DNA from: a virus
Virus record (IMG/VR): IMGVR_UViG_3300043419_001861
Coordinates: 1-28,607 of that record
Length of the DNA: 28,607 bases
Strand: one strand, 5' to 3'
Below the pieces are notes generated by a model. That model saw only the letters and a program-made list of their open reading frames with translations. It ran no database searches and was not told the DNA's origin. This document shows positions 631 through 25,939 of this stretch, one piece after another. Position 1 is the stretch's first letter, and each line of letters opens with the position of its first letter. Position numbers and translations under genes: made by a program.

Positions 631-1008
631 ATGGAAAAAAATGTATTAAATGAAGTTAACAAGATCCGTAAGATGATGGGTCTTAGTGAGGATAAAGGTT
701 ATTCAACCGAAAGCGTTGGTATTGTATCTGACAGGGGTAAATTAATGGCTGGTTATTTCCAGGATGGTCGTCTGGTATCTTTGGGTGACAGAATCCTATT
801 TGATGTTAACGGTAATTTGGTTAAAATGGGTGGTGGATACCCAACTGGTGGTTTTAAAAACGAAACAACGGCAGAAGAGCTTGAGCAGGATATCTGCAAG
901 GCTTATGATGAAATACTTAACACCTTTAGAAAAGATGCACCTATGGTTGTCTCTTTAAACGAGGCATCTTATGATATAATTAAAACAAGTGTGGAGTGTA
1001 ACATATGA
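631..1008 (+). CDS. Hypothetical virion-associated protein with N-terminal LNE tag
   Basis: This 125-residue protein has no recognised enzymatic domain. Residues 6-20 (LNEVNKIRKMMGLSE) match a peptide shared with the proteins starting at 1474, 2288, 6926(-) and 8221(-). The tag ends in L-S-E, compatible with the L/I-x-E site of T4-type prohead proteases, so the mature protein may start near Asp21. The remainder (GIVSDRGKLMAGYFQDGRLV and later) has alternating strand and turn character. The gene overlaps the next by four bases (ATGA), indicating translational coupling. An internal head protein or scaffold component is an inference from the tag and neighbours only. Confidence 0.8.
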   Translation: MEKNVLNEVNKIRKMMGLSEDKGYSTESVGIVSDRGKLMAGYFQDGRLVSLGDRILFDVNGNLVKMGGGYPTGGFKNETTAEELEQDICKAYDEILNTFRKDAPMVVSLNEASYDIIKTSVECNI

Positions 1009-1406
1009 GTAAGTCAACGAAAGTAACGGTAAGAGCGAATGGTGGTACCTGGATGGTAAACGCCAATGGTTCGGATTATAAACAAATAGGTGGAAGCGAA
1101 ACTTTCACATACACCGATTCAAAATCTGGTGATGTGGATGTTGCTGGTGAATTTTATAACGATAATATTATCATTCAATTTGAAATGAACAATCCGTGGA
1201 TTGGTTCGCCATGGGCCGCGGTTGGTCAAGCAATTGGTGACAGCGGTTGGGACAATGGTAGAACAGATATGAGTGAGGGTGACTCACATGTATTCTCCAC
1301 AACCATATACAATGATGATGACGAATACACCTTTAATACAAGGGTGTTAAGGTTATCAGATACCGACACAAAAAACTTCGAGGTTTGGCCTGGATGGTAT
1401 GAATAA
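1005..1406 (+). CDS. Hypothetical small beta-rich protein
   Basis: A 133-residue protein whose ATG overlaps the preceding stop codon (ATGA), so it is probably co-translated with the 631 gene. It has no signal peptide or membrane helix and lacks the LNE tag. It is rich in Thr, Ser, Asn, Asp and aromatic residues (NNPWIGSPWAAVGQA at about residues 64-78, WPGWYE at the C-terminus), with many short alternating segments suggesting a beta-sandwich. Several Asp-rich loops (YNDDDEY) could bind metal. A decoration, fibre or adhesin-like virion role is possible but unproven. I do not recognise the family. Confidence 0.75.
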   Translation: MSKSTKVTVRANGGTWMVNANGSDYKQIGGSETFTYTDSKSGDVDVAGEFYNDNIIIQFEMNNPWIGSPWAAVGQAIGDSGWDNGRTDMSEGDSHVFSTTIYNDDDEYTFNTRVLRLSDTDTKNFEVWPGWYE

Positions 1407-1443
1407 AATTATTACAATAAAGGGTGTTTTATAATGCCTTTAT

Positions 1444-1452
1444 GATATTTAT
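1444..1452 (+). promoter_or_regulatory. Candidate late-promoter motif GATATTTAT
   Basis: GATATTTAT ends 21 bases before the ATG at 1474 and is followed by AT-rich sequence without a clear Shine-Dalgarno site. Identical nonamers occur at 22214, 25221 and 26335 at similar distances from start codons. A weak stem (ATAAAGG with CCTTTAT) lies directly upstream and may end the previous transcript. Confidence 0.5.
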
Positions 1453-1473
1453 ATAAGTAAAACATATTAAAGA

Positions 1474-2286
1474 ATGAAAAAACCCCTATTAAACGAAGAG
1501 ATCACTAGAATCCGTAAGATTATGGGCCTTAATGAAAGTGAAGAATTGGATCTATCTAAAATGGATAACCCAAATGCTTATACCGATGATATCATTAATC
1601 ATAACGCTGAAAAAGAATACGTTGATTTCGAAAAGGATTATGATTTCGACTTTGAAAAAGCTGCGATAGAATCCGCTTCTGGTGAAGAAGTTGTACAAAG
1701 AGAATTTGACGATTATGACAGACCACTATATTATAGTGTTAAGGACGATAACGTACACTACTTTATTGGTGATGGGGATAATGGTCCTATGATTGTTAAG
1801 TATAACGCTGAGACTGGTGAGAGATACCCTATTGGTGACCTAAGAGATTATGATGCACCTGAACTTTCTGAAGGTGATGACGAAACTGATGGCCCGATTG
1901 CGGTATATAAAATGTACAAAAAAGGTGAAGTAAGTCAAAAAGATCTTAACGCTTTGATGGGTATTTGGGATAGAGCCGATAAAGAGAAATTAATGGCTTA
2001 TATAAGATCACAAAAAGAAGAAGGTATTAACGAAATAGATGAATCAGAAATTTCTGAAGGTTCTATGGAAAGCGGTGTGTACTACGATACAACAGTCGCG
2101 CATGAGATAAAAAGTAAAGTGGGTAACCTACATAAAATAGCGCCTTATGTTCTTGAGATAGGTGATAGAGTTATTGAAGACATTTCTGGTAAGATATCAG
2201 TATATGATGAAGGTAATTTAGTTGAGAAGTTTGACAATGTTGAAGCCTTCTTAATTGGAATAAAATACGGAGCAACACCAGTTTAA
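1474..2286 (+). CDS. Acidic virion-associated protein with N-terminal LNE tag
   Basis: A 270-residue, strongly acidic protein beginning with LNEEITRIRKIMGLNE at about residues 6-21, the clearest copy of the shared tag. L-N-E at its end fits a T4-type prohead protease site. After the tag comes an Asp/Glu-rich, probably flexible region, then YYSVKDDNVHYFIGDGDNG, a Lys/Glu helical stretch near residues 150-190, and a C-terminal part with VLEIGDRVIEDISGKISVYD. No catalytic motif is recognised. It starts 21 bases after a late-type promoter motif and is followed after one base by the next tagged gene. An internal head or scaffold protein is the most economical reading, but this is inference. Confidence 0.82.
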   Translation: MKKPLLNEEITRIRKIMGLNESEELDLSKMDNPNAYTDDIINHNAEKEYVDFEKDYDFDFEKAAIESASGEEVVQREFDDYDRPLYYSVKDDNVHYFIGDGDNGPMIVKYNAETGERYPIGDLRDYDAPELSEGDDETDGPIAVYKMYKKGEVSQKDLNALMGIWDRADKEKLMAYIRSQKEEGINEIDESEISEGSMESGVYYDTTVAHEIKSKVGNLHKIAPYVLEIGDRVIEDISGKISVYDEGNLVEKFDNVEAFLIGIKYGATPV

Positions 2287-2287
2287 T

Positions 2288-3208
2288 ATGAGTAGAAAAC
2301 CAACATTAACTGAAGAGTTATTTAGAATCCATGAGATGATGGGTCTGACTGAAAACCAGTTGGATATGTTTGCTGGTACAGAGGACGAGGCCCCAGAAGA
2401 GGGTGCTGAAGATTCCCATATCGGTAAAAGAGTCATGGTTTATTATAACCTTCATAAAAAAACTTTCTCAATACAATACAAAGGTCTGGTGATCGCTCAC
2501 GCTGATTATGTTAAACTTAATAACGTTGAGTTTAGAGTTAGACAAGGTGGTATGGAAAAAGTTAGAGCTGAGATGTCAAAGAATGTTCATGCGTTCGTTA
2601 TTGGCGATTTGGTTGATTTTATACCTTACCCATCGACCGATATACCATCAGCAACTAGTTCAAAATCAATAACATACGATCCATATAAATACGATACATT
2701 TGTTTACAGAGACACAGAGGAACCTGTAACCAGTGCTCGTGAGGTTGAAATGATCAACCAACCAGGTGGAAAAATTTTCCAGATAAACGAGGTTCTTTCA
2801 GAGAATTGGTCTTATGATGAAAATAAGATAAACCAATTCGTTGTTGAAGCTGAAAAGGATGTGCAAATGGCTGATAACCTAATTAATAAATTCGGTGTTA
2901 ACGTTGTTAATATGACGTTAAAAGACATTTATGATAACATGGCACAAATGGAATCAACGAAAGAAAAGTTAAACGCAAGTAAGGATTATATTTCCCGTAA
3001 ATACGAAAAGTATTATGATATTGTTGAAACTTACGAGGTAGGTGAATACCCAGATAATGTTTCTAAGTTATACGATTTATCAAATAAATTAGATAACCAA
3101 AAGGAATCTTTATCGGATCTAGCCGAAACATTTAATACATTAATTGACGCAGCCAAATGGTTGGGGAAATATAATAAAGAAATTTTTGATATACAGAACA
3201 TAAAATGA
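2288..3208 (+). CDS. Virion-associated protein with N-terminal LNE tag and coiled coil
   Basis: A 306-residue protein starting one base after the upstream stop. Residues 7-22 (LTEELFRIHEMMGLTE) are the shared tag with a terminal L-T-E. The middle, about residues 45-115, looks like a small beta domain (GKRVMVYYNLHKKTFSIQYK). The C-terminal half, from about residue 175, is long, charged and helical with heptad character (MAQMESTKEKLNASKDYISR), suggesting a coiled coil. The stop overlaps the start of the first adhesin gene (ATGA). No enzyme motif was seen. The role is probably structural or scaffolding, inferred from the tag, neighbours and coiled coil. Confidence 0.82.
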   Translation: MSRKPTLTEELFRIHEMMGLTENQLDMFAGTEDEAPEEGAEDSHIGKRVMVYYNLHKKTFSIQYKGLVIAHADYVKLNNVEFRVRQGGMEKVRAEMSKNVHAFVIGDLVDFIPYPSTDIPSATSSKSITYDPYKYDTFVYRDTEEPVTSAREVEMINQPGGKIFQINEVLSENWSYDENKINQFVVEAEKDVQMADNLINKFGVNVVNMTLKDIYDNMAQMESTKEKLNASKDYISRKYEKYYDIVETYEVGEYPDNVSKLYDLSNKLDNQKESLSDLAETFNTLIDAAKWLGKYNKEIFDIQNIK

Positions 3209-4461
3209 ACAAACCAACAGCAGTAAACTATACAGGCACACAAACGCCTTATGGTACCAAACACAACAACATTGAGATCGGAGACGCTTCGATTGATTAC
3301 AGAGATAATGACAGTGGGTTAATGTGGTATAACTCACCAGACACCAGCGGTAAATATATGATAATTTCTGCTGCGAATGATAACGGTTATATAACAAACA
3401 CACCATTATTTTGGGTTTGTGATAAAACTGATCAGGAATTATTGAGGTTGGTGAATGGTTTACCAAATAGACGCGGTGAGACACCTTTTACAACAGTGGG
3501 TCAAGCAACTGATTGGTTAAACGCTGAAACAAACTATTACTTATTGACTGGCGAAGGTGGTGGTGGAAACCCAACAGGTTTCACTGTTACTATAACACAA
3601 TCTGGTAGTGATGTTATTGTAAGTGCTTCTGGTGTACTTAATTTGGCTGATCTAAACTACATTGGTGAGGCACAAGGTGGTGGGCCTGGTGGTCTTGGTG
3701 CACCGTCAGCGACATTTATAGTGGGTGGTAGTATTGGTGCTTTTGATCAATATAGTGGGTCAACATTTAATGCGCCAGCCACGTTTGGTTCATTTAGTGG
3801 CCCCTCTAATTCTGGTTCTGGGGATACTTTTGGTGTAATCATGAACGGACAACCACCATATATATTGGCAGTTCCAGCGGGTTATACATCTAATGAAAGC
3901 CTAACAAGTACGATGACATTTACAAATACGAGTATAGCTACAATGGGCTTAACCGAAGGTACATACACGTATACTTGGGGAACTGGTGGAAATGCGGATG
4001 CGATAAATATGATTATCGGTGGAACTAGTGGTACATCTGGTACTTCAGGCACTGGTGGAACTGGTGGCGGAGCTGGATGGTTCTTCTATAGTGGAGAAGG
4101 AACTTTAGATGTGGCTGAACCAACAAGTGCGGGTAATGCAATATTTGTGGTTAATGGTTCCCCAATGGTAGAAACTTTTAACCCAAACAAAGTTAATGGA
4201 AAAGCGCTTTATTTTAATAGATATAATAGCACTGGAACGGATTACGCAACACAATTTGCATCTTTACAAGCTAATGGTGGAACATTAAGTATTACACAAA
4301 ATGGTAATACAGTAACATATACAGCAACTAACCCTAACATGTTTGTATTTAATAGTAATCCAAATGGGTTTTTATTAGTAAATACTGGTATGTTAACACA
4401 AACCGCATCTGTTGTTAACCCATTTGTTAGCGGTGACCCAATAACACTTACATTCTCATAA
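3205..4461 (+). CDS. Tail-fibre/adhesin-like protein 1 (shared N-terminal module, GTSG linker)
   Basis: A 418-residue protein, the first of three tandem paralogues. Residues about 8-115 form a module shared with the next two genes: an early IEIGDASIDY-like segment, GKYMIISAAND, then ELLRLVNGLPN and a closing VGQATDWLN. After a Gly-rich hinge come repeated Thr/Ser/Asn-rich beta segments, a GTSGTSGTSGTGGTGGG run near residues 275-291, and a C-terminal beta domain. GTSG runs are common in phage fibre proteins. No signal peptide is present, as expected for a virion protein. The N-terminal module probably anchors the protein to the particle while the variable C-terminus binds a host surface; this is inference. 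Confidence 0.75.
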   Translation: MNKPTAVNYTGTQTPYGTKHNNIEIGDASIDYRDNDSGLMWYNSPDTSGKYMIISAANDNGYITNTPLFWVCDKTDQELLRLVNGLPNRRGETPFTTVGQATDWLNAETNYYLLTGEGGGGNPTGFTVTITQSGSDVIVSASGVLNLADLNYIGEAQGGGPGGLGAPSATFIVGGSIGAFDQYSGSTFNAPATFGSFSGPSNSGSGDTFGVIMNGQPPYILAVPAGYTSNESLTSTMTFTNTSIATMGLTEGTYTYTWGTGGNADAINMIIGGTSGTSGTSGTGGTGGGAGWFFYSGEGTLDVAEPTSAGNAIFVVNGSPMVETFNPNKVNGKALYFNRYNSTGTDYATQFASLQANGGTLSITQNGNTVTYTATNPNMFVFNSNPNGFLLVNTGMLTQTASVVNPFVSGDPITLTFS

Positions 4462-4482
4462 TAAAAAAAATATTAATATATC

Positions 4483-5334
4483 ATGGCAACAGCAAGACCT
4501 TACGCATATAACCCAGGGGCACCGATATCTGGGACACAACAAGTCGGTGATTTGGCAATCGGAACACCCGATTACGGTTTTACAGATAACCCACAATTTT
4601 GGAACGGACCTGACGAGGAGTTGGGTTATGTAATAGCATTACCAGTTCCAGATAATAGTCAACCAACACCGATACCTGGTGTAACAGCTTCCGTTCGTTT
4701 TCTGAGATCTGGGGCTTTAACAGAAGAATCTTTTGTTAACTTGGTTAACACACAATTCAATCAGAATCATCAAAGCGCTTTTGATGCTAAAGATTGGCTA
4801 ACCTCACAGGGGTATTTCAGTACTTTTTCAGCTTTTGGAAGTTCTGGATTCCAATGGATGACAATGAATCAAATCACCCCAACTGAAGCCAATGGTGTTG
4901 GTCAAAACAATATTACAATTAATATCACACAAACAGGTGGTGGTATGGCCACTGAGCCTGGTATGTATAGTGCGAGTACTTTCCCTGAAGAATACGGCGT
5001 CCCTCTTGTTGGTGACCAAATCCAAAACAGTGAGGATGGGGTGTTCACCGCAACATTTAGTCAACCCGTGACAGATCCTTTGGTTGCATTCGCAAGCGTT
5101 GGTAACCCGAATCTACAGGTTCCAGTTATTGTTTCAGCACCATTTACACCAATTTGGGGTCAAAACACAACATATCAAAACCCATCTGGGTTAACCCAAT
5201 ATACACAGTTTACTGGTAACGAAGGGTTTAATATTATCCGTATAGATGGTACTCATACATCAATTAGTTTTAACTATAGTATTGCTGAGTACTATAGCAC
5301 AATTTGTTTCGGTTTTGTTGATCAGAACCCTTAA
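4483..5334 (+). CDS. Tail-fibre/adhesin-like protein 2 (shared N-terminal module)
   Basis: A 283-residue paralogue of the flanking adhesins. The N-terminal module (residues about 1-115) has GTQQVGDLAIGTPDY, GYVIALPVPD, SFVNLVNTQFN and AKDWLTSQGYF, matching the other two in order. From about residue 145 the protein is different: a beta-rich domain with VFTATFSQPVTDPLVAFASV and a final FNYSIAEYYSTICFGFVDQN segment, which looks like a jelly-roll-type fold but is not assigned. It lies 21 bases after gene 1 and 10 bases before gene 3, so the three form one transcription unit. A receptor-binding or capsid-decoration role is inferred. Confidence 0.75.
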   Translation: MATARPYAYNPGAPISGTQQVGDLAIGTPDYGFTDNPQFWNGPDEELGYVIALPVPDNSQPTPIPGVTASVRFLRSGALTEESFVNLVNTQFNQNHQSAFDAKDWLTSQGYFSTFSAFGSSGFQWMTMNQITPTEANGVGQNNITINITQTGGGMATEPGMYSASTFPEEYGVPLVGDQIQNSEDGVFTATFSQPVTDPLVAFASVGNPNLQVPVIVSAPFTPIWGQNTTYQNPSGLTQYTQFTGNEGFNIIRIDGTHTSISFNYSIAEYYSTICFGFVDQNP

Positions 5335-5344
5335 TTATTTTTAA

Positions 5345-6403
5345 ATGATATATAACGCTATATATAACTCTGGCCCAGCAATAGGTGGTACAACTCAGGT
5401 TGGTAATGTTGCTATCGCAACTGGTACACCAGATTATGCAGTTGGTGATTGGGTTGGCGGTGTTGATGATACTGGGTGTTATGTTATCATTAGTGAGACA
5501 ACAAACACTGGTTTAGCTGGCCGATCAGCTGGTGGTACTTCGGAAATAATTCCAGCCCGAACCCCAGTTTTTTGGCAAACAAATGCCGATACCGACCAAT
5601 CTTTCCTTGATTTAGTTAACGTATTACCAGGTTCGCCTGGTACTATAACCGATGTTGGGGTAGCGACAGACTGGTTAACTAATAATAATTTTTGGACATC
5701 ATACGGAACAGCTCTGGCTGTAACAGCTCAAATATATTTTGATCCAGCTAATCCATTATCTTATCCAGGTAGTGGTAACACTTTAACCAATATTGGTATA
5801 TTGGGTAACGTTACTGGTACATTGGGGAATATGTCGGGTGTTGTTTACGATAGTAACGCTGGTGGTGGATCTCTTAACTTTGACGGTGGTTCGGATACGA
5901 TACAATTCGGCCAATTTAATTTTGGTAACTCAGTATCAATTAGCGCTTGGGTTTACCCAAGAAATGAAGCTAGTATAAATTGTCTGGTTTCTAACTGTGG
6001 TGCAAACACGGCGACAAATGGTTTTAAAATGGCTTGGAATAACTGGACAACAGTTAATTTAGCAATGAATTTTGAAGCGGGTAACGGTAACGCTGGTGGT
6101 ACCCAATCAACAGCTAATAATACAGTTACCGAGAACGCTTGGCAGATGTTAACTTATGTTTTTGATAAAACAAATCAAACAATACGTTTCTATAAAAATG
6201 GAGTTGCTATTCCCACTAATAACGGTGGGTCACCAGTTGCTAACATAGGTACAAACAATTCAAATTGGTGGATTGGTTCTATTGGTGGTAATTCATACCA
6301 AATGGACGCAAACTTAGGTGAGTTTAAAGTTTGGACTAGTTTAATGTCTGATAACGATATTTTAGCTGAATTTAACGCAACAAAAACTAGATACGGTTTG
6401 TAA
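5345..6403 (+). CDS. Tail-fibre/adhesin-like protein 3 with C-terminal LamG/ConA-like domain
   Basis: A 352-residue protein. Residues about 1-120 carry the shared module (GTTQVGNVAIATGTPDY, CYVIISETTN, SFLDLVNVLPG, GVATDWLTNNNFW). Residues about 127-350 look like a concanavalin A-like/LamG jelly roll: YFDPANPLSY, SLNFDGGSDTIQFG, SVSISAWVYPRN, WQMLTYVFDKTNQTIRFYKN and the closing LGEFKVWTSLMSDNDI. These domains typically bind carbohydrates or glycoproteins, so it is a good candidate receptor-binding protein. The gene ends one base before the stop of the convergent gene at 6405, with no obvious terminator in between. Confidence 0.82.
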   Translation: MIYNAIYNSGPAIGGTTQVGNVAIATGTPDYAVGDWVGGVDDTGCYVIISETTNTGLAGRSAGGTSEIIPARTPVFWQTNADTDQSFLDLVNVLPGSPGTITDVGVATDWLTNNNFWTSYGTALAVTAQIYFDPANPLSYPGSGNTLTNIGILGNVTGTLGNMSGVVYDSNAGGGSLNFDGGSDTIQFGQFNFGNSVSISAWVYPRNEASINCLVSNCGANTATNGFKMAWNNWTTVNLAMNFEAGNGNAGGTQSTANNTVTENAWQMLTYVFDKTNQTIRFYKNGVAIPTNNGGSPVANIGTNNSNWWIGSIGGNSYQMDANLGEFKVWTSLMSDNDILAEFNATKTRYGL

Positions 6404-6404
6404 A

Positions 6405-6926
6405 CTATTGTGGTTTTTCTGAGTCTTTTATGATCAACTCACCTAGCACTTCCATCTTACCTAGAAGTTCTTGGAATGCTATTTGTTCAATATCCATATC
6501 ACCCTTTGTTGCGGTGTAAAGTTTTTCGAGAAGATCCTTATATTCTTTTTTAGCATCTCCCATATCTAAGTCACCCTTAGCAGCTTTTTCGTAATATTCT
6601 AACTTAACCTCAAAGTGGTGGTAAGTTAATAACGCCGCACCACCTTTTTCTTTTGCGTTGTCGGCAATTTTTTCAGCACCGCCTAATCTTGTTTCAGCAA
6701 ATGATTCGAGTTTATCACCCTCTTCTAGAGGATTACCTGGGCCCCTAGTTGTATTGGATTGCCATGTTGTGTTACCAACTGGATTACCTGGACCTCTTTT
6801 AGCACCAGAATCCCATAGAGATCCAGTCGAGGTTGAGGTCGAAGTTGACGTTGATGAGGTTGGGGTCGAATCCTCATTCAATCCCATCATCGTTCTTATT
6901 TTTAATATTTCCTCAAGATATGTCAT
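6405..6926 (-). CDS. LNE-tagged helical virion-associated protein with Ser/Thr linker
   Basis: A 173-residue protein, last gene of the 8221-6405 operon; its start lies inside the preceding gene (14-base overlap). Residues 5-18 (EEILKIRTMMGLNE) are the shared tag ending in L-N-E, with a shorter N-terminal lead than the others. A Ser/Thr dipeptide run (SSTSTSTSTSTG) follows immediately, then two copies of RGPGNP about 18 residues apart. From about residue 65 it is a charged, helical domain (FEVKLEYYEKAAKGDLDMGD). The linker directly after the putative cleavage site suits a processed internal head protein. No enzymatic function is visible. Confidence 0.8.
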   Translation of the reverse strand: MTYLEEILKIRTMMGLNEDSTPTSSTSTSTSTSTGSLWDSGAKRGPGNPVGNTTWQSNTTRGPGNPLEEGDKLESFAETRLGGAEKIADNAKEKGGAALLTYHHFEVKLEYYEKAAKGDLDMGDAKKEYKDLLEKLYTATKGDMDIEQIAFQELLGKMEVLGELIIKDSEKPQ

Positions 6927-7188
6927 GATTGTTGCGTTTATCCTTTTCTTGTTTATAATTAAAATGATTACCCTCTATGTCAACGAATTCATCGTTGTCG
7001 GTTAAAGCCCTATAACTCGTATAACCTATAAATAAAACAACCTCAAAGAATAATGTATATATTACTGGGTGCCAATCCAAAGGGTTAAATTTACCTATTA
7101 TAACAGCTAAAACACCATATATAAAACCGCATTGAAATATCATTAAAAATAAAAATGGGATAATATATGATGTGATAAAGTTTTTCAT
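6913..7188 (-). CDS. Small two-helix membrane protein
   Basis: A 91-residue protein with two probable transmembrane helices, about residues 6-30 (YIIPFLFLMIFQCGFIYGVL) and 40-60 (VIYTLFFEVVLFIGYTSY), followed by a charged C-terminal tail. It sits between two LNE-tagged genes, one base after the upstream stop and overlapping the downstream start by 14 bases, so it is co-transcribed with candidate virion genes. A holin, antiholin or superinfection-exclusion protein would fit the size and topology, but nothing specific identifies it. Confidence 0.75.
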   Translation of the reverse strand: MKNFITSYIIPFLFLMIFQCGFIYGVLAVIIGKFNPLDWHPVIYTLFFEVVLFIGYTSYRALTDNDEFVDIEGNHFNYKQEKDKRNNHDIS

Positions 7189-7189
7189 T

Positions 7190-8221
7190 TTAATTGATGT
7201 AATTCGTCAATTCATATTTACCTGAAGGCATTCTATATAATGAAATTTGTAACATTTTTCTAACTGGTTCACCATCTTTTAATAGCTCCACTTGGTATTG
7301 AACAGTGCTTTCGTAACTAACATGCTCTGGTGTAATACTCTCCCAGTTAACCATGAACCCCTTATGTTTAGCGTATTCTTCAGCTGATTCCAAAGCGCCA
7401 GCTTGTGTATCGAAGTATGTTTCTTGTTGAAAACCTCTACCTTCGAAAACTTTGCCATCCTTACCAGCTCTCATAGCCATCCAAGAACCTTCTTCTTCCT
7501 CAAGTTCTTTTTGAAGTTCGTCCAAACTTTCTAATTTAAGATCACCCAAAGCGTCCATTGTATCATCATAACCAGGCATTTTATAATCTGGTTCTTCTTC
7601 TGGTTCTCCGAACATATCATTAATTAACGATTCAGCCATTGATTTTAAATCAATTGTGTTATTACCCTTACCCATATTCCATACGTGTTTTAAGGCGTTC
7701 TCAAGGTAATCAACTCTATTTTCAGAACCAACCATAGTACCTTCCATCGCAAGATCCCATCCACCGATAATAGATTCGTCAACCTCGTCCTGAGCTTCAC
7801 AATGTTCACCACACGCTGAACAAATATCATGCATAATAATAGGTGCATCACAACAATCTGAAAGACCCTCACCATCACTATCACTAGGATCGAATGCTTC
7901 GTTTTTTTCAAAAGTTTCTGGATCCCTATCTTGTTTATTCGCAGTTGCGTAATAAACCTCTTCACCCTTTTCTTTACCGTATTGATCTTTGAATTTATTT
8001 AAAACCTCAGTGTTCTCATCAGTTTCTCCCTCTCTCATAGAATGAACTATATTTGAAGGGGATAATTCTTCTAGCGAAGCCGCACCATTTTTACCGTAGT
8101 TAATTTCATAATCATCGTCTTCTGGCGACATATTTGTAACTTTACCGCTCGGGCTAACATGGGTGATACCCATCATTTCTTGTATTCTGGTAACTTCTTC
8201 GTTTAAGGTAATTTTTTTCAT
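7190..8221 (-). CDS. LNE-tagged virion-associated protein with Cys-rich (zinc-ribbon-like) segment
   Basis: A 343-residue acidic protein and first gene of the operon. Residues 6-18 (LNEEVTRIQEMMGIT) match the shared tag, but the position of the L-x-E site reads I-T-H, so cleavage may be lost or moved. A short motif follows near residues 75-100 (KFKDQYGKEKGEEVYYATAN), which I recall from other phage proteins. Next is a cysteine cluster, SDCCDAPIIMHDICSACGEH, with spacing suited to zinc binding. The C-terminus (about 255-343) is a small alpha/beta domain ending in YRMPSGKYELTNYIN. A late-type motif ends 13 bases before the start codon. The role is probably in the head or core; not proven. Confidence 0.82.
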   Translation of the reverse strand: MKKITLNEEVTRIQEMMGITHVSPSGKVTNMSPEDDDYEINYGKNGAASLEELSPSNIVHSMREGETDENTEVLNKFKDQYGKEKGEEVYYATANKQDRDPETFEKNEAFDPSDSDGEGLSDCCDAPIIMHDICSACGEHCEAQDEVDESIIGGWDLAMEGTMVGSENRVDYLENALKHVWNMGKGNNTIDLKSMAESLINDMFGEPEEEPDYKMPGYDDTMDALGDLKLESLDELQKELEEEEGSWMAMRAGKDGKVFEGRGFQQETYFDTQAGALESAEEYAKHKGFMVNWESITPEHVSYESTVQYQVELLKDGEPVRKMLQISLYRMPSGKYELTNYIN

Positions 8222-8254: not shown

Positions 8255-8294
8255 AAAAAAGGACGGTATTGGTAATTAAAATGTTAAGTCGTCC
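8255..8294 (-). terminator. Possible terminator after the tRNA array, sharing the tRNA-Ile acceptor strand
   Basis: On the minus strand the last bases of tRNA-Ile (GGACG) can pair with CGTCC about 24 bases downstream, directly followed by six T residues. The loop is long, so this is a weak terminator call, but its place at the end of the tRNA array is apt. Confidence 0.3.
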
Positions 8295-8362
8295 TAGCTG
8301 GACTCGAACCAGCGGCCTTCTGCGTATCAGGCAGACGCTCTAACCAACTGAGCTACAGGACG
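8289..8362 (-). tRNA. tRNA-Ile(GAT)
   Basis: A 74-base cloverleaf. The acceptor CGTCCTG pairs with TAGGACG, the D arm is GCTC/GAGC, the anticodon stem TCTGC/GCAGA encloses CTGATAC (anticodon GAT), and the T arm is GCTGG-TTCGAGT-CCAGC. The discriminator is A and CCA is not encoded. It is the last gene of the array. Confidence 0.95.
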
Positions 8363-8376
8363 ATAAATTAGATTTT

Positions 8377-8423
8377 GCACAATAAACATTGTTCGTTTAT
8401 CGTAGCAAAAACGGGTTTATTGT
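8377..8423 (-). ncRNA. Spacer with two crossing perfect stems (possible pseudoknot)
   Basis: ACAATAAAC at 8379-8387 is perfectly complementary to GTTTATTGT at 8415-8423, and TTTTGC at 8373-8378 to GCAAAA at 8405-8410. The two pairings cross, as in an H-type pseudoknot. It lies between tRNA-Ile and tRNA-Arg. It may instead be a processing signal or chance. Confidence 0.25.
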
Positions 8424-8496
8424 ACCTTCAGAGAGACTCGAACTCCCAACCTTTTCGTTCGTAGCGAAACGCTCTAATCCATTGAGCTATGAAGGC
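8423..8496 (-). tRNA. tRNA-Arg(ACG)
   Basis: A 74-base cloverleaf. GCCTTCA pairs with TGAAGGT (first pair G-U), the anticodon arm TTTCG-CTACGAA-CGAAA gives anticodon ACG, and the T arm is GGGAG-TTCGAGT-CTCTC. The discriminator is A; CCA is not encoded. A34 would need host TadA to become inosine. Confidence 0.93.
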
Positions 8497-8500
8497 AAAT

Positions 8501-8615
8501 AATAGGTCATTGTTACAATATCTCTCACCCACTTTCTTGGCAGGGTCTCCATCATGGGTTCCGTTAACTGATATCTATTTTATAACCCCTGACGGAACAA
8601 ACGGGGTAACCTATT
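8501..8615 (-). ncRNA. Structured 115-nt spacer in the tRNA array, candidate small RNA
   Basis: The ends pair on the minus strand: AATAGG with CCTATT, continued by TTAC with GTAA after a bulge. Inside are two more arms: GTTCCGT with ACGGAAC (perfect 7 bp) and ACCCA with TGGGT. This gives a three-way-junction-like fold. There is no anticodon arm or T-loop, so it is not a tRNA. No ORF of note is present. It lies between tRNA-His and tRNA-Arg. Confidence 0.35.
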
Positions 8616-8618
8616 TTG

Positions 8619-8692
8619 GGTGACTGATGGGACTCGAACCCACGACCTCTTGAATCACAATCAAGCACTCTAACCAACTGAGCTACAGAAAC
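8619..8692 (-). tRNA. tRNA-His(GTG) with imperfect acceptor stem
   Basis: The anticodon arm CTTGA-TTGTGAT-TCAAG gives GTG, and the T arm GTGGG-TTCGAGT-CCCAT is normal. The acceptor GTTTCTG against CAGTCAC has two mismatches (T-C and T-T). An upstream G at 8693 can pair with discriminator C73, the known histidine identity pair. The gene may be functional or decaying. Confidence 0.88.
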
Positions 8693-8752
8693 CATGTATG
8701 TTCATTAAAACGGAGTGTTCAGTGACACTGAACATCAATTAATATTGAACAG

Positions 8753-8827
8753 TGGTAGCGAGAGGGAGTTTCGAAATCCCGACCTTTCGGATATGAGCCG
8801 AATGCTCTTCCTCTGAGCTATCTCGCC
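8753..8827 (-). tRNA. tRNA with CAT anticodon (Met, or Ile2 if modified)
   Basis: The acceptor GGCGAGA pairs with TCTCGCT, and the anticodon arm TTCGG-CTCATAT-CCGAA gives CAT. The discriminator is A and CCA is encoded at 8753-8755, one of only two genes here with this. The first acceptor pair is G-U, without the C1-A72 mismatch typical of initiators, so elongator Met or lysidine-modified Ile is more likely. Confidence 0.9.
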
Positions 8828-8830
8828 ATT

Positions 8831-8904
8831 TGGTTGTCCCTTCAGGACTCGAACCTGAATTCTCTGGCTCAAAACCAGATGTGCTGCCATTACACCAAGG
8901 GACA
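8831..8904 (-). tRNA. tRNA-Gln(TTG)
   Basis: The acceptor TGTCCCT pairs perfectly with AGGGACA, the anticodon arm TCTGG-TTTTGAG-CCAGA gives TTG, and the T arm is TCAGG-TTCGAGT-CCTGA. The discriminator is A and CCA is encoded at 8831-8833. Confidence 0.95.
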
Positions 8905-8910
8905 ATATAG

Positions 8911-8983
8911 TGGAGCTAATGGGACTCGAACCCACATCCTCTTCCTTGCAAGGGAAGCGCTCAGCCAATTGAGCTATAACCCC
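8911..8983 (-). tRNA. tRNA-Ala(TGC)
   Basis: The acceptor GGGGTTA pairs with TAGCTCC (two wobble pairs), the anticodon arm CTTCC-CTTGCAA-GGAAG gives TGC, and the T arm is GTGGG-TTCGAGT-CCCAT. The discriminator is A; CCA is not encoded. The metalloprotease-like gene ends two bases upstream of its 5' end. Confidence 0.94.
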
Positions 8984-8984
8984 A

Positions 8985-9446
8985 TTAATTTTGTCGAAGA
9001 CTTATCTGTTTTAGACAATGATCTAATAGATACTGTTCGACATTTGGTATTTTCCTTAAGAAATCATACTCATACGAATAGCAAAGTATTTCTTCTCTTG
9101 GTGACTCTTGAACACCTCTATATCTAAGGTAGAGATGTAAAGATTCATGTACAATAACAGCAGCAAGATTGTTTAGGGATTTTGCCCTAGCATCTGTCGA
9201 TGATATTATTATACTTCCTTTTGTATCTTTGTAACCCTCATTTGTTGAGTAGTTTCCAGACCAAAAAGTTATTTTATTACAAACTCGTAACACAAGTTTG
9301 TAAACGGTGGTATCTGTTTGTCTGATGATACTTAAAGCACTATCAGCTCTCAGATCCCAACCATCCCCAGCTTTATCTATCACAATTTGCGATTTACAAA
9401 TCGTTGTGGATAAAACCATTACAATCATTAATATTAGCTTTCTCAT
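8985..9446 (-). CDS. Small secreted HExxH metalloprotease-like protein inside the tRNA array
   Basis: From ATG at 9446 this gives a 153-residue protein. Residues 1-19 (MRKLILMIVMVLSTTICKS) look like a Sec signal peptide ending before QIV. HESLH at residues 100-104, in a helix (AAVIVHESLHLYLRYRG), is the zinc-binding HExxH of zincins; Glu118, Glu119 or Glu126 could be the third ligand. This start is chosen because it gives a full signal peptide; a longer frame to 9482 runs into tRNA-Tyr. The gene fits exactly between tRNA-Tyr (3' end 9459) and tRNA-Ala (5' end 8983). A TATTTAT-like motif lies four bases upstream. It may act in the periplasm or on the envelope; the substrate is unknown. Confidence 0.75.
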   Translation of the reverse strand: MRKLILMIVMVLSTTICKSQIVIDKAGDGWDLRADSALSIIRQTDTTVYKLVLRVCNKITFWSGNYSTNEGYKDTKGSIIISSTDARAKSLNNLAAVIVHESLHLYLRYRGVQESPREEILCYSYEYDFLRKIPNVEQYLLDHCLKQISLRQN

Positions 9447-9450
9447 ATTA

Positions 9451-9457
9451 ATAAATA
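9451..9457 (-). promoter_or_regulatory. TATTTAT motif directly before the metalloprotease-like gene
   Basis: Minus-strand CTATTTATTAATATG places the motif only four bases from the ATG at 9446. If used as a promoter the mRNA would be leaderless. It could be a chance match in AT-rich sequence after tRNA-Tyr. Confidence 0.25.
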
Positions 9458-9458
9458 G

Positions 9459-9540
9459 TGCCAGCAGGTGGACTCGAACCACCGAACCCGTAAGGGAGCA
9501 GATTTACAGTCTGCCGCAATTGCCGCTATGCGATACTGGC
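9459..9540 (-). tRNA. tRNA-Tyr(GTA)
   Basis: An 82-base class II tRNA. The acceptor GCCAGTA pairs with TGCTGGC, the anticodon arm GCAGA-CTGTAAA-TCTGC gives GTA, a long variable arm is built on CCC/GGG, and the T arm is GGTGG-TTCGAGT-CCACC. The discriminator is A; CCA is not encoded. Confidence 0.95.
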
Positions 9541-9584
9541 AAGTGAGGAAAGAGGAAGATGGTTCAGTGGACATCCTCTTTTAC

Positions 9585-9673
9585 GATCGGCATTACTTGG
9601 GTGAATACCTGCAAACTCCGATCACACCAGTCAGTATTCACTCTCGAACTATTGATGTGACCATTCCCCGATC
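9585..9673 (-). ncRNA. Structured spacer with possible pseudoknot, candidate small RNA
   Basis: Minus-strand GATCGG (from 9673) and CCGATC (to 9585) close an 89-base domain. Inside, TCACATCA pairs with TGGTGTGA (8 bp, one G-U) and GTGAATAC pairs perfectly with GTATTCAC (8 bp). The order of the four arms is interleaved, so both can form only as a pseudoknot or as alternatives. A further hairpin (AAAGAGGA/TCCTCTTT, 9549-9580) follows towards tRNA-Tyr. No tRNA features or credible ORF are present. Confidence 0.4.
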
Positions 9674-9681
9674 AACCTTTG

Positions 9682-9754
9682 TACACCCTATAGGACTCGA
9701 ACCTATGACATCTGCCATGTAAGGGCAGCGCTCTACCAACTGAGCTAAAGGTGC
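9682..9754 (-). tRNA. tRNA-Val(TAC)
   Basis: The acceptor GCACCTT pairs with AGGGTGT, the anticodon arm CTGCC-CTTACAT-GGCAG gives TAC, and the T arm is ATAGG-TTCGAGT-CCTAT. The discriminator is A; CCA is not encoded. Confidence 0.95.
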
Positions 9755-9759
9755 ATATA

Positions 9760-9840
9760 TCCCTTCGTAGGTACTTGCCGTTTCTTAAGTCGACACTTTC
9801 CCCGTTGCATGTTTTATTAAAGTGTACTTCCCTACTGGGA
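9760..9840 (-). ncRNA. Structured spacer with nested stems, candidate small RNA
   Basis: Three nested helices can form on the minus strand: TCCC with GGGA, GTAGG with CCTAC, and ACACTTT with AAAGTGT, separated by internal loops. The sequence lies between tRNA-Leu and tRNA-Val. A GGCTTCAAGTCCC stretch resembles a T arm, but it begins too close to the end of tRNA-Leu for a tRNA to fit. Confidence 0.35.
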
Positions 9841-9858
9841 CTTGAAGCCAACACATTG

Positions 9859-9939
9859 TACCCAAAGAGAGACTCGAACTCTCACGCCTTTCAGCCACGG
9901 TTTCTAAGACCGTTATGTCTACCATTCCATCACTCGGGC
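9859..9939 (-). tRNA. tRNA-Leu(TAG)
   Basis: An 81-base class II tRNA. The acceptor GCCCGAG pairs with TTTGGGT (wobbles present), the anticodon arm ACGGT-CTTAGAA-ACCGT gives TAG, a long variable arm follows, and the T arm is GAGAG-TTCGAGT-CTCTC. The discriminator is A; CCA is not encoded. Confidence 0.93.
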
Positions 9940-9946
9940 ATTTTAG

Positions 9947-10017
9947 CACGGATACAAGGATTCGAACCCTGAACTGTGGTTTTGGAGACCATTATGATAC
10001 CATTTCACCATATCCGT
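9947..10017 (-). tRNA. tRNA-Trp(CCA)
   Basis: A 71-base tRNA. The acceptor ACGGATA pairs with TATCCGT, the anticodon arm ATGGT-CTCCAAA-ACCAC (one outer mismatch) gives CCA, and the T arm is CAGGG-TTCGAAT-CCTTG. The discriminator is G, as is usual for bacterial tRNA-Trp. Confidence 0.93.
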
Positions 10018-10026
10018 GTATATTTG

Positions 10027-10096
10027 AGTATAAGGTTGGAATCGAACCAACACCATTGGTTTTGCAGACCAACCGACCACCACGATCAACTTATAC
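10027..10096 (-). tRNA. tRNA-Cys(GCA)
   Basis: The acceptor GTATAAG pairs perfectly with CTTATAC, the anticodon arm TTGGT-CTGCAAA-ACCAA gives GCA, and the T arm is GTTGG-TTCGATT-CCAAC. The discriminator is T, the cysteine identity base. Confidence 0.95.
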
Positions 10097-10101
10097 ATTT
10101 G

Positions 10102-10176
10102 TGTCCCCGACAGGACTCGAACCTGTGACTCCCTCATTAAAAGTGAGGTGCTCTAAACCAACTGAGCTACGAAGAC
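10102..10176 (-). tRNA. tRNA-Lys(TTT)
   Basis: The acceptor GTCTTCG pairs with CGGGGAC (two wobbles), the anticodon arm CCTCA-CTTTTAA-TGAGG gives TTT, and the T arm is ACAGG-TTCGAGT-CCTGT. The discriminator is A. Confidence 0.95.
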
Positions 10177-10182
10177 ATTGTG

Positions 10183-10258
10183 TCAGGATAGCTGGATTCG
10201 AACCAGCGATCCCCTGCGTCCAAGGCAGGTAGGGACGACCTGACTCCCCCATATCCTG
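10183..10258 (-). tRNA. tRNA-Pro(TGG), variant with unusual D arm
   Basis: The acceptor CAGGATA pairs perfectly with TATCCTG, the anticodon arm CCTGC-CTTGGAC-GCAGG gives TGG with A37, and the T arm is GCTGG-TTCGAAT-CCAGC. The D arm is G-rich (GGGGGAGTCAGGTCGTCCC) and unlike its neighbours. Proline tRNAs normally have G37, so identity should be tested; it duplicates the anticodon of the next gene. Confidence 0.85.
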
Positions 10259-10265
10259 AATTAAG

Positions 10266-10340
10266 TAGCGTAGACAGGACTCGAACCTGCACTATGTCCT
10301 CATCCCAAATGAGGCGGCCTACCAATTGGCCAACTACGCT
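10266..10340 (-). tRNA. tRNA-Pro(TGG)
   Basis: The acceptor AGCGTAG pairs perfectly with CTACGCT, the D arm is GGCC/GGCC, the anticodon arm CCTCA-TTTGGGA-TGAGG gives TGG with the normal G37, and the T arm is GCAGG-TTCGAGT-CCTGT. It is the first gene of the array, immediately downstream of a candidate host-type promoter. Confidence 0.93.
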
Positions 10341-10612: not shown

Positions 10613-10996
10613 TTATCTTTTTCCTATCTTTACTGGTGTAACTCCTTGATTTCTATCAATATAGATCCAGTCACAAGATGTTAAATTAAATTGATTTAAG
10701 TGCTCTAAGACAACATCTATATCATATTCTTTGCAAGAATATATGTCAAACTGCACTAAAGACGGTGTCTCATTATCCCAAACATGTATTGATGCGTGTG
10801 ATGTTGCTAATGTTATTGTACCCGTAACACCTTCGTTACCTGGCTCATTTACATATACGGATGTTGGGCCAGCTACAACGACCATACCTACTTTATCAAC
10901 CAACTCTCTTAACCAAATGTTAAGTGACTCTTCTGTTCTTGGTGGGTTATTTACAAAACCCCTAACAATTAAATGTACATGATTAGGTTTAAACAT
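10613..10996 (-). CDS. S-adenosylmethionine decarboxylase-like protein
   Basis: A 127-residue protein resembling the short bacterial AdoMet decarboxylases of polyamine synthesis, which self-cleave to form a pyruvoyl cofactor. LATSHASIHVWD at residues 63-74 aligns with the family ESHxxIHTWPE motif: Ser66 would become the pyruvoyl group, His71 is the processing histidine, and Cys88 in FDIYSCKEYD is the catalytic cysteine. The residue before the serine is Thr, where the family usually has Glu, so processing efficiency is uncertain. It follows the 83-residue acidic gene by four bases and ends at a strong terminator. Phage-borne speD genes are known; it may shift spermidine supply during infection. 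No speE partner is visible here. Confidence 0.75.
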   Translation of the reverse strand: MFKPNHVHLIVRGFVNNPPRTEESLNIWLRELVDKVGMVVVAGPTSVYVNEPGNEGVTGTITLATSHASIHVWDNETPSLVQFDIYSCKEYDIDVVLEHLNQFNLTSCDWIYIDRNQGVTPVKIGKR

Positions 10997-11377: not shown

Positions 11378-13276
11378 ATGAAAAACTTATTTTTAACGCT
11401 AGTGCTGGCGTTATTAGCCATTACTGGCTATGCACAAACAACTGCGCCGTCAGGTGGTAATTGGGTTATCGTTGACTCATCTTACAATGTCGGACCGCAG
11501 TCACAAGGTTTTACTTTAGCTAACCTTTATTACGACAACACAACAACGACTAAAATCGCTGGTTTACAATTCCGTGTATTCTACGACAAAGTAGCTTTCG
11601 GTGGTGCGAAACCAATCGTAACTTTGTTATACAGTAGTACTGACCAGTATATGCAATATGTTGCGGATTCAGTGAATGGTAACATTACCGTTACGTTAGC
11701 TTATACGGGTACTAACAACTCATTCACATATGCTGACGGTGCGGCATTCCAGATTAAGTTCTTTCACCAAGCTGCAACCGCTTTCCAAACTTTAACTAGT
11801 ATTGATAGTTTGAAGGTAACTGGTACTTTAACGTTCCCTTCATATGCATCAACAATAGCTGGTATTGATACAACATTATCTTTACACAGTTATGGTGGTG
11901 AATTTAAAATGAACAGATTGAAATACCACGGTAGGTTTACAAACGTAACTGGTTCTGGATCTAAAGATATTACAATTGCTTTAGAAAAAAGACCTAAAAC
12001 ATCAACAGGTGCTTGGACTCAAGTTAAACTCGATACCACTGATGTTACTGGTTATTTCTCTTTCGATGAGATCTTAGATACAACCTATTGGGATGCACAC
12101 TTATATGTTAAAGGTGATACAATGGCCGTTGGTAATACAGTATCCGTTGCCGATGCACAAAAAGTTAATAAGTTTGTTATTGGTGAAGAAACTCCAACAG
12201 GTTTTGATTTCTACGCCTCTGATGTAAACGGTTCTTACGGTATTACAATTGCTGACGTATCAGCTATTTACGGTCGTTTAGCGGGTAGATTCTCAGTGTG
12301 GCCAAACTCTGTTCAAGATGTTAGATTCTTTACAGTTTCAGAATACACAACAATTAATGGATCTTCAACTAACTACACATCAACTATCGCTGGTGTAACT
12401 AACTTAACATTTGATATTATCGCTGGTCAACCAGACTCAGTAACATTCTATGTATTAGGTGGTGGTGACGCAAACGGTACTGGTTTCAACATGGCTCGTA
12501 CAATTCCTATTGAGATCTTAAACCCTAGCAAAACACCTCAATACATCATCGATGAAACTGTTGAGTATGACTTCCCAACCGCTACAATCGAAATTAATTT
12601 ACCTAAGATTCAAGTTAGCGAAGGTAATTTAGTTAATGTACCTATGAAGGTTTTAACTGATGGTGGTCAAGTTGGTTCGATTCAATTGGCTTTGGCTTAT
12701 GACAACTCTTTATTAGAATTTAAAGGTATTAAAACAGAACAAAAATTCATGAACTGGATGTCATTCTTAAACCCAAATAACGGGGTTGTTGAATGGGCTG
12801 GTGCTGATATGAGTAGAAATGAATACTTAGCTAATAACAATGACGCTGTTTTAACACTACAATTCTTAGCGTTATCGCCACAAGTTGATTGGGACGATAG
12901 TCCATTATATGTCATCAGAAAATTCGCTGGGGACGCTTCTGCAACTGATTTAAGGATAACACCAACAAACGGCGTTGTTAAAATATTTAAAATGAACGGT
13001 GGTGGTACTTTAACTAAAGACTGTGAAATAATTGTTGTACCTAACCCAACAGATGGTTTAGCTCTTGTGAGTTTTAGTGTACCTGAAGATGGGGAAATAA
13101 ACGTTGGTTTTTATGACGTAAGCGGAAAATTAGTACACACGGTTTTTAGTGGTAAAATGTATAAGGGTAAATACCTTTATCCAGTTGACTTAACTAATGT
13201 TACACCTGGTACGTATTACGGTATTCTACAAACAGGATCTCAAATCAAAACAAATAAAACAATAAAATTAAACTAA
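11378..13276 (+). CDS. Secreted cohesin/dockerin-like protein with type IX secretion sorting domain
   Basis: From ATG 11378 this is 632 residues; the upstream in-frame extension is rejected because this ATG gives a clean signal peptide (MKNLFLTLVLALLAITGYAQ). Residues about 25-180 look like a first cohesin-like beta domain. Residues about 245-305 hold dockerin-like calcium-loop segments (VSVADAQKVNKFV; DVNGSYGITIADVSAIYGRL). A second cohesin-like domain spans about 400-537 (VNVPMKVLTDGGQVGSIQLA). The last 80 residues (VVPNPTDG to the Lys-rich end KTNKTIKLN) match type A C-terminal domains of Bacteroidota type IX secretion. The product is therefore predicted to be exported through the outer membrane and displayed or released. 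Such a gene in a phage is unusual. Binding partner unknown. Confidence 0.85.
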   Translation: MKNLFLTLVLALLAITGYAQTTAPSGGNWVIVDSSYNVGPQSQGFTLANLYYDNTTTTKIAGLQFRVFYDKVAFGGAKPIVTLLYSSTDQYMQYVADSVNGNITVTLAYTGTNNSFTYADGAAFQIKFFHQAATAFQTLTSIDSLKVTGTLTFPSYASTIAGIDTTLSLHSYGGEFKMNRLKYHGRFTNVTGSGSKDITIALEKRPKTSTGAWTQVKLDTTDVTGYFSFDEILDTTYWDAHLYVKGDTMAVGNTVSVADAQKVNKFVIGEETPTGFDFYASDVNGSYGITIADVSAIYGRLAGRFSVWPNSVQDVRFFTVSEYTTINGSSTNYTSTIAGVTNLTFDIIAGQPDSVTFYVLGGGDANGTGFNMARTIPIEILNPSKTPQYIIDETVEYDFPTATIEINLPKIQVSEGNLVNVPMKVLTDGGQVGSIQLALAYDNSLLEFKGIKTEQKFMNWMSFLNPNNGVVEWAGADMSRNEYLANNNDAVLTLQFLALSPQVDWDDSPLYVIRKFAGDASATDLRITPTNGVVKIFKMNGGGTLTKDCEIIVVPNPTDGLALVSFSVPEDGEINVGFYDVSGKLVHTVFSGKMYKGKYLYPVDLTNVTPGTYYGILQTGSQIKTNKTIKLN

Positions 13277-22235: not shown

Positions 22236-22871
22236 ATGAGCATGAAAGAAGATTTAACACCAGAAGTTGACAATGTCATCATAGGAAAAATTGGTGAGTT
22301 AAAAAAAATACAAGCCCAGTTAGATGAGGCGTTAAAACTCTATAAAGATTCAATAGCTGATCTGGAAGCGGCTAAAGCCAGCTTAGTACCAGAAGTAATG
22401 GAAGCTTTTGTTGGCCAAAAAGATGGGGCTGAAAAATTAAAGCGTGAATTAGATGGTATGGTGGTTGAAATCGTTCAGGAATCTGAGAGATTATCAACAT
22501 CATATAAAGACGCTTTTGAAACAGCGTTAACTAAAGTTAACGAAAACACAAAAAAAGTTTTACAACAAATTTTAGAAAGTTCTAAAGTAGCATCTAAAGT
22601 TAAAGGTCAATTAAAGATTGACGGTACAAAGGTTTACGAAGGTGCTATGATGGATTGGTTGGGTTCTGTAAAGGATTGGTTAACCAGAGCTTTTAATAAA
22701 GTTAATGTTTTTTCAGGTAGAGCCGAAGAAGGTTTAGACGAAATCAGTGCCATGATTAAAAATTATGACGATGAGCAAGAAAATATGTACGCTAGCAAGA
22801 ACATGGATGATGTTGAGTCTGGGGCCATTTACGAGTCTATCGATAGAATGAAAAGAATAATAAATTTCTAA
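22236..22871 (+). CDS. Coiled-coil hypothetical virion or scaffold-like protein
   Basis: A 211-residue, almost fully helical protein. Residues about 10-60 (GELKKIQAQLDEALKLYKDS, then ADLEAAKASL) and 70-125 have coiled-coil character. The last residues, YESIDRMKRIINF, resemble the RI-x-x-(I/M) part of the LNE tag but are at the C-terminus. A late-type motif precedes the gene and a small basic gene follows after 12 bases. This profile suits a prohead core or scaffold protein, which in T4-like phages are helical and acidic, but no homology is claimed. Confidence 0.8.
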   Translation: MSMKEDLTPEVDNVIIGKIGELKKIQAQLDEALKLYKDSIADLEAAKASLVPEVMEAFVGQKDGAEKLKRELDGMVVEIVQESERLSTSYKDAFETALTKVNENTKKVLQQILESSKVASKVKGQLKIDGTKVYEGAMMDWLGSVKDWLTRAFNKVNVFSGRAEEGLDEISAMIKNYDDEQENMYASKNMDDVESGAIYESIDRMKRIINF

Positions 22872-25243: not shown

Positions 25244-25939
25244 ATGGGTAAGAAAGTTTATAAAATGACTGAAGATCAGGTTGCTTCTGTTTTGAATAAA
25301 AAGAAAGAGGGTGCTATCGCTGATATGCCAGCGCCAGGTTTAAAACTAAGCAATGAGGGGTCAAATAAAAAAACAAAATATAAAATCACTGAGGATCAAC
25401 TAAAAAGAATCTTTAATGAGCTAGGTCAAAAGGCTATTGATGAGATGGATAACTATAATTATCCAATGGGTTCAGATACACCTGATGCACCATGGAATCA
25501 GAATGATGATAATGTTAAACAAGGTGAATCTGTTGCTGGTGACTATGTTGGTGTCTTTACCGCTCAAGGCGAATTCTTATTAAAGAATAAGCAAACTAAT
25601 GAGTTGCTTTATAGTTTAACTGATGTCTGGTATGATATATATGCTGAATTAGAAGACTATTTAGATGTTCCACAAGAAGAAGAAGAGGACGAAGATGGTA
25701 GGTATATGACAGCAGCTAGCGACTGGAAAGATCATATCACAAATGATGAGTTGTTAGAAGCTTTGGCTAGTTACATTAATGACAAAGCTAAAAGAAACCA
25801 GGATTTAAAAATCACCGATACTATTGAGTCATGGGATAATGCTGAACATGAGTTTTTATTAGTTAAGCCAGAAACTATCGAAGCGATAGGGTCAAAACCA
25901 GTTGTTGAAAAAGCAAAAGCTCTGCTTGGTTTAAATTAA
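25244..25939 (+). CDS. Acidic protein with duplicated tag-like helix at the N-terminus
   Basis: A 231-residue acidic protein. Two similar helices occur near the N-terminus: YKMTEDQVASVLNKKKEGAI (about residues 6-25) and YKITEDQLKRIFNELGQKAI (about 46-65). They share Y-K-x-T-E-D-Q and resemble the LNE tag (TEE-L-x-RI), but without the MMGL-x-E end. A Pro/Asn-rich link follows, then a mixed alpha/beta domain (about 100-231) with a strongly acidic patch (PQEEEEDEDGRYM). A late-type motif is upstream. Probably virion-associated; no function assigned. Confidence 0.78.
   Translation: MGKKVYKMTEDQVASVLNKKKEGAIADMPAPGLKLSNEGSNKKTKYKITEDQLKRIFNELGQKAIDEMDNYNYPMGSDTPDAPWNQNDDNVKQGESVAGDYVGVFTAQGEFLLKNKQTNELLYSLTDVWYDIYAELEDYLDVPQEEEEDEDGRYMTAASDWKDHITNDELLEALASYINDKAKRNQDLKITDTIESWDNAEHEFLLVKPETIEAIGSKPVVEKAKALLGLN

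Follow-up and report, generated by a model that had tools for sequence, protein, structure and literature searches.

Five proteins encoded on the IMG/VR virus record IMGVR_UViG_3300043419_001861 (28,607 bases, or 28.6 kb; this whole stretch is called the window) share one N-terminal peptide. On sequence evidence, this peptide very probably serves a T4-like phage as a capsid-targeting propeptide, which a gp21-type prohead protease would cut and which would be usable at both ends of a protein. The sequence-only reading of the window had proposed a cargo tag comparable to the capsid-targeting sequence (CTS) of T4, and every sequence-level prediction examined came out positive.

The terminal tag and its cleavage-type site

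The five window proteins were otherwise different, and the start of each was confirmed (Table 1). Reading of the N-termini also confirmed that four of the five tags end in L-S-E, L-N-E or L-T-E. The DNA motif pattern had four matches in the window, compared with 0.01 expected from shuffles. A sixth copy of the tag, overlooked in the sequence-only reading, was located at the C-terminus of a further protein. Among the five window tags, identical codons were used at 24 of 53 identical residues, with 24.9 expected from codon usage. Codon identity between tags overall was slightly raised, at 0.57 compared with 0.50 expected. Because codon sharing in the window matched the expectation from codon usage, the likeness of the tags lies in the protein sequence and does not stem from recent DNA copying.

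IMG/VR was searched with a stricter DNA pattern than the one used for the window scan, and a near-identical pattern was applied to bacterial and archaeal genomes. The pattern search across related phages, proposed earlier as a check, returned 56 loci in IMG/VR, with the motif at the N-terminus of an open reading frame in 49 of them. The bacterial and archaeal genomes, 257 Gb in total, yielded 29 matches. No match lay at a credible gene start with L-x-E behind it, and many fell inside one conserved enzyme. Across 13 related contigs of uncultured T4-like viruses, 45 tagged N-termini were read; the peptide of these relatives has the form M-x-[L/I]-x-E-E-I-x-R-I-x-x-M-M-G. Clustering of the parts behind the tag resulted in about 40 families, among which no similarity was detectable outside it. 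Being common to about 40 unrelated families, the tag behaves as a transferable unit, in agreement with the earlier proposal. Tagged genes formed cassettes of neighbours in several contigs (five in L018, four in L017 and a group in G033), and the set of tagged families differed strongly from genome to genome. Microcystis phage Mel-JY01, Rhodothermus phage RM378 and two huge uncultured phages carried no tag, with one chance match in the largest. A tblastn search with the 21-residue consensus peptide gave no match, the peptide being too short for such a search. No earlier description of the motif was found in the open literature searched, which is weak evidence, since a search by meaning does not retrieve short motifs.

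The T4 protease gp21 cuts after L/I-x-E (PMC9026906). Of the 40 families, 35 had this motif, [L/I]-x-E, within 13 residues after MMG, and the spacer measured 0 to 8 residues. It ended at most 4 residues from the MMG glycine in 32 of the 45 N-termini (background 1.6-2.7%) and at most 12 residues from it in 38 (background 8-13%). The spacing ran from adjacent (MMGLNE) to several residues off (MMGLNLLNE, MMGVKKIINE, MMGFSSYNKRFLTE). Since the distance to the helix varied, L-x-E is conserved in its own right and not merely as a part of the helix. The residue before the glutamate was N, T or S in 84% of the tags, compared with 24% for L-x-E in other proteins. The propeptide of the capsid protein ended in I-N-E before A (72) or L-N-E before S (8) in 80 of 80 relatives. 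Judged by these residues, the [L/I]-[N/T/S]-E of the tag and the invariant end of the capsid propeptide are sites of the same type.

A profile trained solely on the N-terminal tags was applied to every protein of the 13 contigs. It gave 26 C-terminal matches; the internal rate would yield 1.4, and 0 to 4 occurred in shuffled tails. After the L-x-E and G columns had been dropped from the profile, 18 C-terminal matches remained (1.3 expected), and [L/I]-x-E stood directly upstream in 61% of these 18, compared with 3% of the internal ones. Five capsid-picked genomes outside the training set showed 11 C-terminal matches, where about 0.4 were expected from the internal rate. C-terminal copies were also present in some capsid-picked relatives without the N-terminal tag. 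N-terminal copies had the order helix, L-x-E, protein, whereas C-terminal ones had the order protein, L-x-E, helix; through this mirrored order, the cut site would face the part to be kept at either end. Orthologues of the C-terminally tagged window protein in G018 and G002 scored in these scans. As a separate observation, a protein of about 155 residues ending in the C-terminal helix recurred in G023 (95496-95966), G007 (119818-120285), G022 (95420-95887), G032 (99706-100173) and others. Neither Pfam nor PHROGs assigned it to a family.

The protease search covered 29 records, the window and 28 tagged relatives. An S77 (gp21-type) prohead protease was encoded in 11 of them, including every tagged contig of at least 120 kb, and the contigs with this protease also encoded a gp23-type capsid protein. 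All eleven aligned homologues shared the conserved catalytic His and Ser with T4 gp21. The solved T4 gp21 construct 5JBL, matched with E = 1.7e-10, has alanines at exactly those two positions. Among the relatives read, G006 was the closest in which tagged genes of the window type occurred together with the head module.

The scaffold tail and a proposed route into the head

The gene between the protease and capsid genes of the relatives encodes an acidic protein with 2.45 L-x-E per 100 residues, compared with 1.29, as would be expected of a gp22-type scaffold. There was no Pfam or PHROG match to it, and the putative scaffold was therefore identified by position and character only. Its tail has the form [L/I]-x-E-S-x-x-Y-x-NPQ-[hydrophobic]-x-R-[M/I]-[K/R]-[D/E]-[L/I]-[M/I]. 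All 56 of the 56 distinct tails fitted the core [N/D]PQ-[hydrophobic]-x-[R/K]-[M/I/L]-x-[D/E]-[L/I/M]-[M/I], and one tail, NPQIIRIKEMMGVLK, contained the tag core. The median scaffold-tail score was matched by only 0.03% of random internal 20-mers. The helix of the tag is thus probably derived from, or an imitation of, the C-terminal helix of the scaffold. Two other sources were tried and rejected: the capsid-protein propeptide, in which INRWDSLGLLE looked alike, scored at background, and the ends of the gp21 protease gave no match. The earlier suggestion of a T4-like logic operating with an unrelated peptide was supported with regard to the logic, and the peptide itself now has a likely origin in the scaffold's C-terminal helix.

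In the proposed route, the peptide [L/I]-x-E-[E]-I-x-R-I-x-x-M-M-G would act as a short amphipathic helix that brings its protein into the prohead core, and the gp21-type prohead protease would then cut after the adjoining (L/I)-x-E. The mature cargo would remain in the head, able to exit with the DNA, and the helix could serve at the N-terminus as well as at the C-terminus. It probably mimics the C-terminal helix of the gp22-like scaffold, in which case cargo and scaffold would bind the same core partner. We infer packaging, cleavage, delivery to the host and the binding shared with the scaffold; in the simplest reading, tagged cargo would enter the core by passing for a scaffold subunit. Somewhat favoured is the wider reading of a two-ended transferable packaging code. 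According to it, any protein bearing the scaffold's C-terminal helix at either end with an inner L-x-E would be carried into the prohead as a false scaffold subunit and then released by the protease, loading interchangeable sets of effectors in a large clade of uncultured T4-like viruses.

Cargo and competing explanations

Most tagged proteins had no recognised domain. Those with assignments included a likely ADP-ribosyltransferase (ART; DUF3990/ART-PolyVal), a thioredoxin, a GH19 protein, a GNAT acetyltransferase and a GP88 protein. An M23 peptidase carried the tag at its C-terminus. Large tagged proteins joined NUDIX with ParB, GNAT or an ART-like stretch, the latter being read by eye from the sequence and not a profile match; two were tagged at both ends, and DUF5872 was among the domains of the NUDIX/ParB/GNAT group. 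The mature part of the window protein at 2288-3208 showed PF25735, the mycobacteriophage L5 gp82 domain, and no domain was assigned to the other four N-tagged window proteins (631, 1474, 6926 and 8221). The structure model of the 8221 protein, with a predicted local distance difference test (pLDDT) of 53, was too poor for a fold search. The T4 head contains the ADP-ribosyltransferase Alt (PMC9026906), and proteins with sets of ART, ParB, NUDIX and GNAT domains are held to be injected with the phage DNA (PMC5512222). Judged by its domains, the recognisable cargo is effector-like and resembles known head-packaged or injected proteins.

The tagged proteins could alternatively be components of the core or scaffold, placed in the core by the helix and cut by the protease with most of the product expelled, and would then be assembly aids and not cargo. 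This is improbable, as many of them have recognisable enzyme domains (ART, NUDIX, thioredoxin, GH19, GNAT) and the strong variation of family sets by genome fits accessory cargo rather than essential core proteins. Consistent with such a role are the same helix at the C-terminus of the scaffold gp22, the extensive degradation of gp67, gp68 and gp22 in T4 (PMC9026906) and the acidic, low-complexity character of some tagged proteins, one of which has additional internal LNE sites. Less probable still is that the helix is a docking peptide for a target outside the capsid (tail, replication compartment or host membrane), with L-x-E coincidental or a part of the helix. Some tagged genes of the window adjoin tail-fibre-like genes, and the link between tag and head consists of sequence evidence only; however, L-x-E is kept although its spacing from the helix varies, it lies towards the mature protein, the tag's preference at P2 is that of the invariant capsid cleavage site, and the scaffold has the same helix. 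A non-functional spread, in which recombination copied 5' gene ends and the peptide has no common job, is hardly credible: tagged genes often lie in neighbouring cassettes (L017, L018, G033), but copying of the 5' ends as DNA was rejected by the codon comparison (tag codon identity equal to the codon-usage expectation in the window and barely above it overall), C-terminal copies exist and the motif is conserved over many divergent genomes.

Several points weigh against the interpretation as a capsid-targeting propeptide modelled on the scaffold. The strict N-terminal DNA pattern was found in only 3 of 22 relatives picked by capsid protein alone, and only G033 among these three was clearly tagged, so that not every member of the clade has the tag. 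T4's own scaffold tail has no resemblance to the tag. The scaffold likeness was noticed post hoc and represents one evolutionary observation, not 56 independent ones. Neither virion proteomics nor a cultured tag-bearing relative was found. The ART assignment was made with Pfam scores below the curated cut-offs, and the structure model of the ART-like cargo, with a pLDDT of 46, was too poor for a fold search. The window held no head gene (protease or capsid), being a 28.6-kb fragment; the gp21-like protease, for which a search had been proposed earlier, was recovered in tagged relatives and not in the window itself.

A further such point is the 8221 protein, whose tag the sequence-only reading had described as deviating (I-T-H). 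L-x-E is missing from its usual place, and close relatives keep x-H where other tags have x-E; a more distant member of the family, in L032, has I-N-E. The next candidate site of the 8221 protein, SLEE before LSPS, lies about 30 residues further on, and most of the family has [L/I/V]-x-E further along, ahead of LSPS. When the final residue of the CTS in T4 is an aspartate, processing is blocked and targeting is not (PMC9026906). By this precedent, the 8221 copy may be an uncleaved but targeted variant.

The window, its host and known systems

Contents of the window include tRNAs, an endolysin, a helicase and a nucleotide kinase. The copies of the tag are listed in Table 1.

Table 1. Tag copies in the window, with positions counted from its first base
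Copy	Position	Strand	Site	Protein
N-terminal tag MEKNVLNEVNKIRKMMGLSE, then D	631..690	+	predicted cut after LSE	125 residues, 631-1008
N-terminal tag MKKPLLNEEITRIRKIMGLNE, then S	1474..1536	+	predicted cut after LNE	270 residues, 1474-2286
N-terminal tag MSRKPTLTEELFRIHEMMGLTE, then N	2288..2353	+	predicted cut after LTE	306 residues, 2288-3208
N-terminal tag MTYLEEILKIRTMMGLNE, then D	6873..6926	-	predicted cut after LNE	173 residues, 6405-6926
N-terminal tag MKKITLNEEVTRIQEMMGITH	8159..8221	-	no L-x-E directly behind helix	343 residues, 7190-8221
C-terminal helix copy, IYE then SIDRMKRIINF	22827..22868	+	L-x-E-type site faces protein body	end of 211-residue protein, 22236-22871

The protein at 1474-2286 has a C-terminal domain GVYYDTT...GIKYGA, and in G006 (51184-52236) the same domain stands directly behind the tag, a case of differing domains joined to one tag. 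Three successive fibre-like proteins, one with a LamG-type domain, are encoded at 3205-6403 (+), with a group of tagged genes on either side; the N-terminal parts of the three fibre-like proteins appear mutually related. The protein at 25244-25936 (+) starts with two related short motifs, K-M-T-E-D-Q-V-A-S-V and K-I-T-E-D-Q-L-K-R-I, possibly another type of terminal tag. A run of 14 tRNA genes occupied 8288-10340 (-), two of them being tRNA-Pro with the same anticodon. Adjoining this run, the gene at 10613-10996 (-) gave a weak match, below cut-off, to S-adenosylmethionine decarboxylase (TIGR03330).

The host is probably a member of the Bacteroidota. A type IX secretion system (T9SS) type A sorting domain (TIGR04183) was detected above the curated cut-off in the protein at 11384-13273 (+), which supports this assignment and the earlier designation as a phage of Bacteroidota. 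The phage-borne protein looks as if it were destined for the type IX secretion route of Bacteroidota. Deriving the host from tagged bacterial contigs was rejected, as each of the 29 genome-contig matches was either internal or due to chance.

To our knowledge, only a few proteins of T4 are known as head-addressed, and the binding partner of the address is unsettled. Here, dozens of proteins of unassigned function are made candidates for head packaging by one readable motif, so that whole sets of likely injected host-takeover proteins could be listed on the basis of sequence only. The resemblance to the scaffold tail supplies a concrete binding hypothesis, and a two-ended tag would be handy for loading foreign proteins into phage heads.

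Among described systems, the phiKZ and SPN3US inner-body proteins are alike in comprising many internal or ejected head proteins with N-terminal propeptides removed by a protease, gp175 and gp245, respectively (PMC5694885). These propeptides sometimes have several cleavage sites and identical N-termini on paralogues (PMC5694885). They differ in being mostly long (more than 100 residues in SPN3US), in their S/A-x-E motifs and in having identical starts only between paralogues, whereas the tags of the present clade comprise 18-22 residues and end in L/I-x-E. No gp22-type scaffold was confirmed in the phiKZ/SPN3US group. Polyvalent proteins (Iyer et al. 2017, PMC5512222) are likewise phage proteins that combine several domains, among them ART, ParB, NUDIX/GNAT and peptidoglycan-cutting ones. 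Their injection together with the DNA was deduced from domains and gene context, whereas here an explicit address tag is present, with two proteins tagged at both ends. A precedent for C-terminal tags is given by T4 Alt and gp21, from which gp21 removes C-terminal pieces after an L-x-E-type site (PMC9026906), although that work describes no C-terminal targeting helix common to unrelated proteins.

The closest counterpart is the T4 CTS (IPI, IPII, IPIII and Alt; gp21), a 10-19-residue N-terminal propeptide that occurs on different head proteins and ends in (L/I)-x-E, as here (PMC9026906). Further likenesses to T4 are the homologous protease and capsid protein, the overall assembly logic and an ADP-ribosyltransferase cargo, Alt in T4 and the ART-like tagged protein here. 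The tag would work like the T4 CTS, a likeness of function for which no homology is claimed. In contrast to the CTS, it is a different and longer peptide, with 18-22 residues to the cut and L-x-E at both its ends, and it is present on about 40 families instead of a handful and also at C-termini. It resembles the scaffold tail of its own clade, and the T4 scaffold tail is unlike it. New in comparison with the T4 CTS are the unusually large number of users, the two-ended form and the concrete hypothesis on the binding partner.

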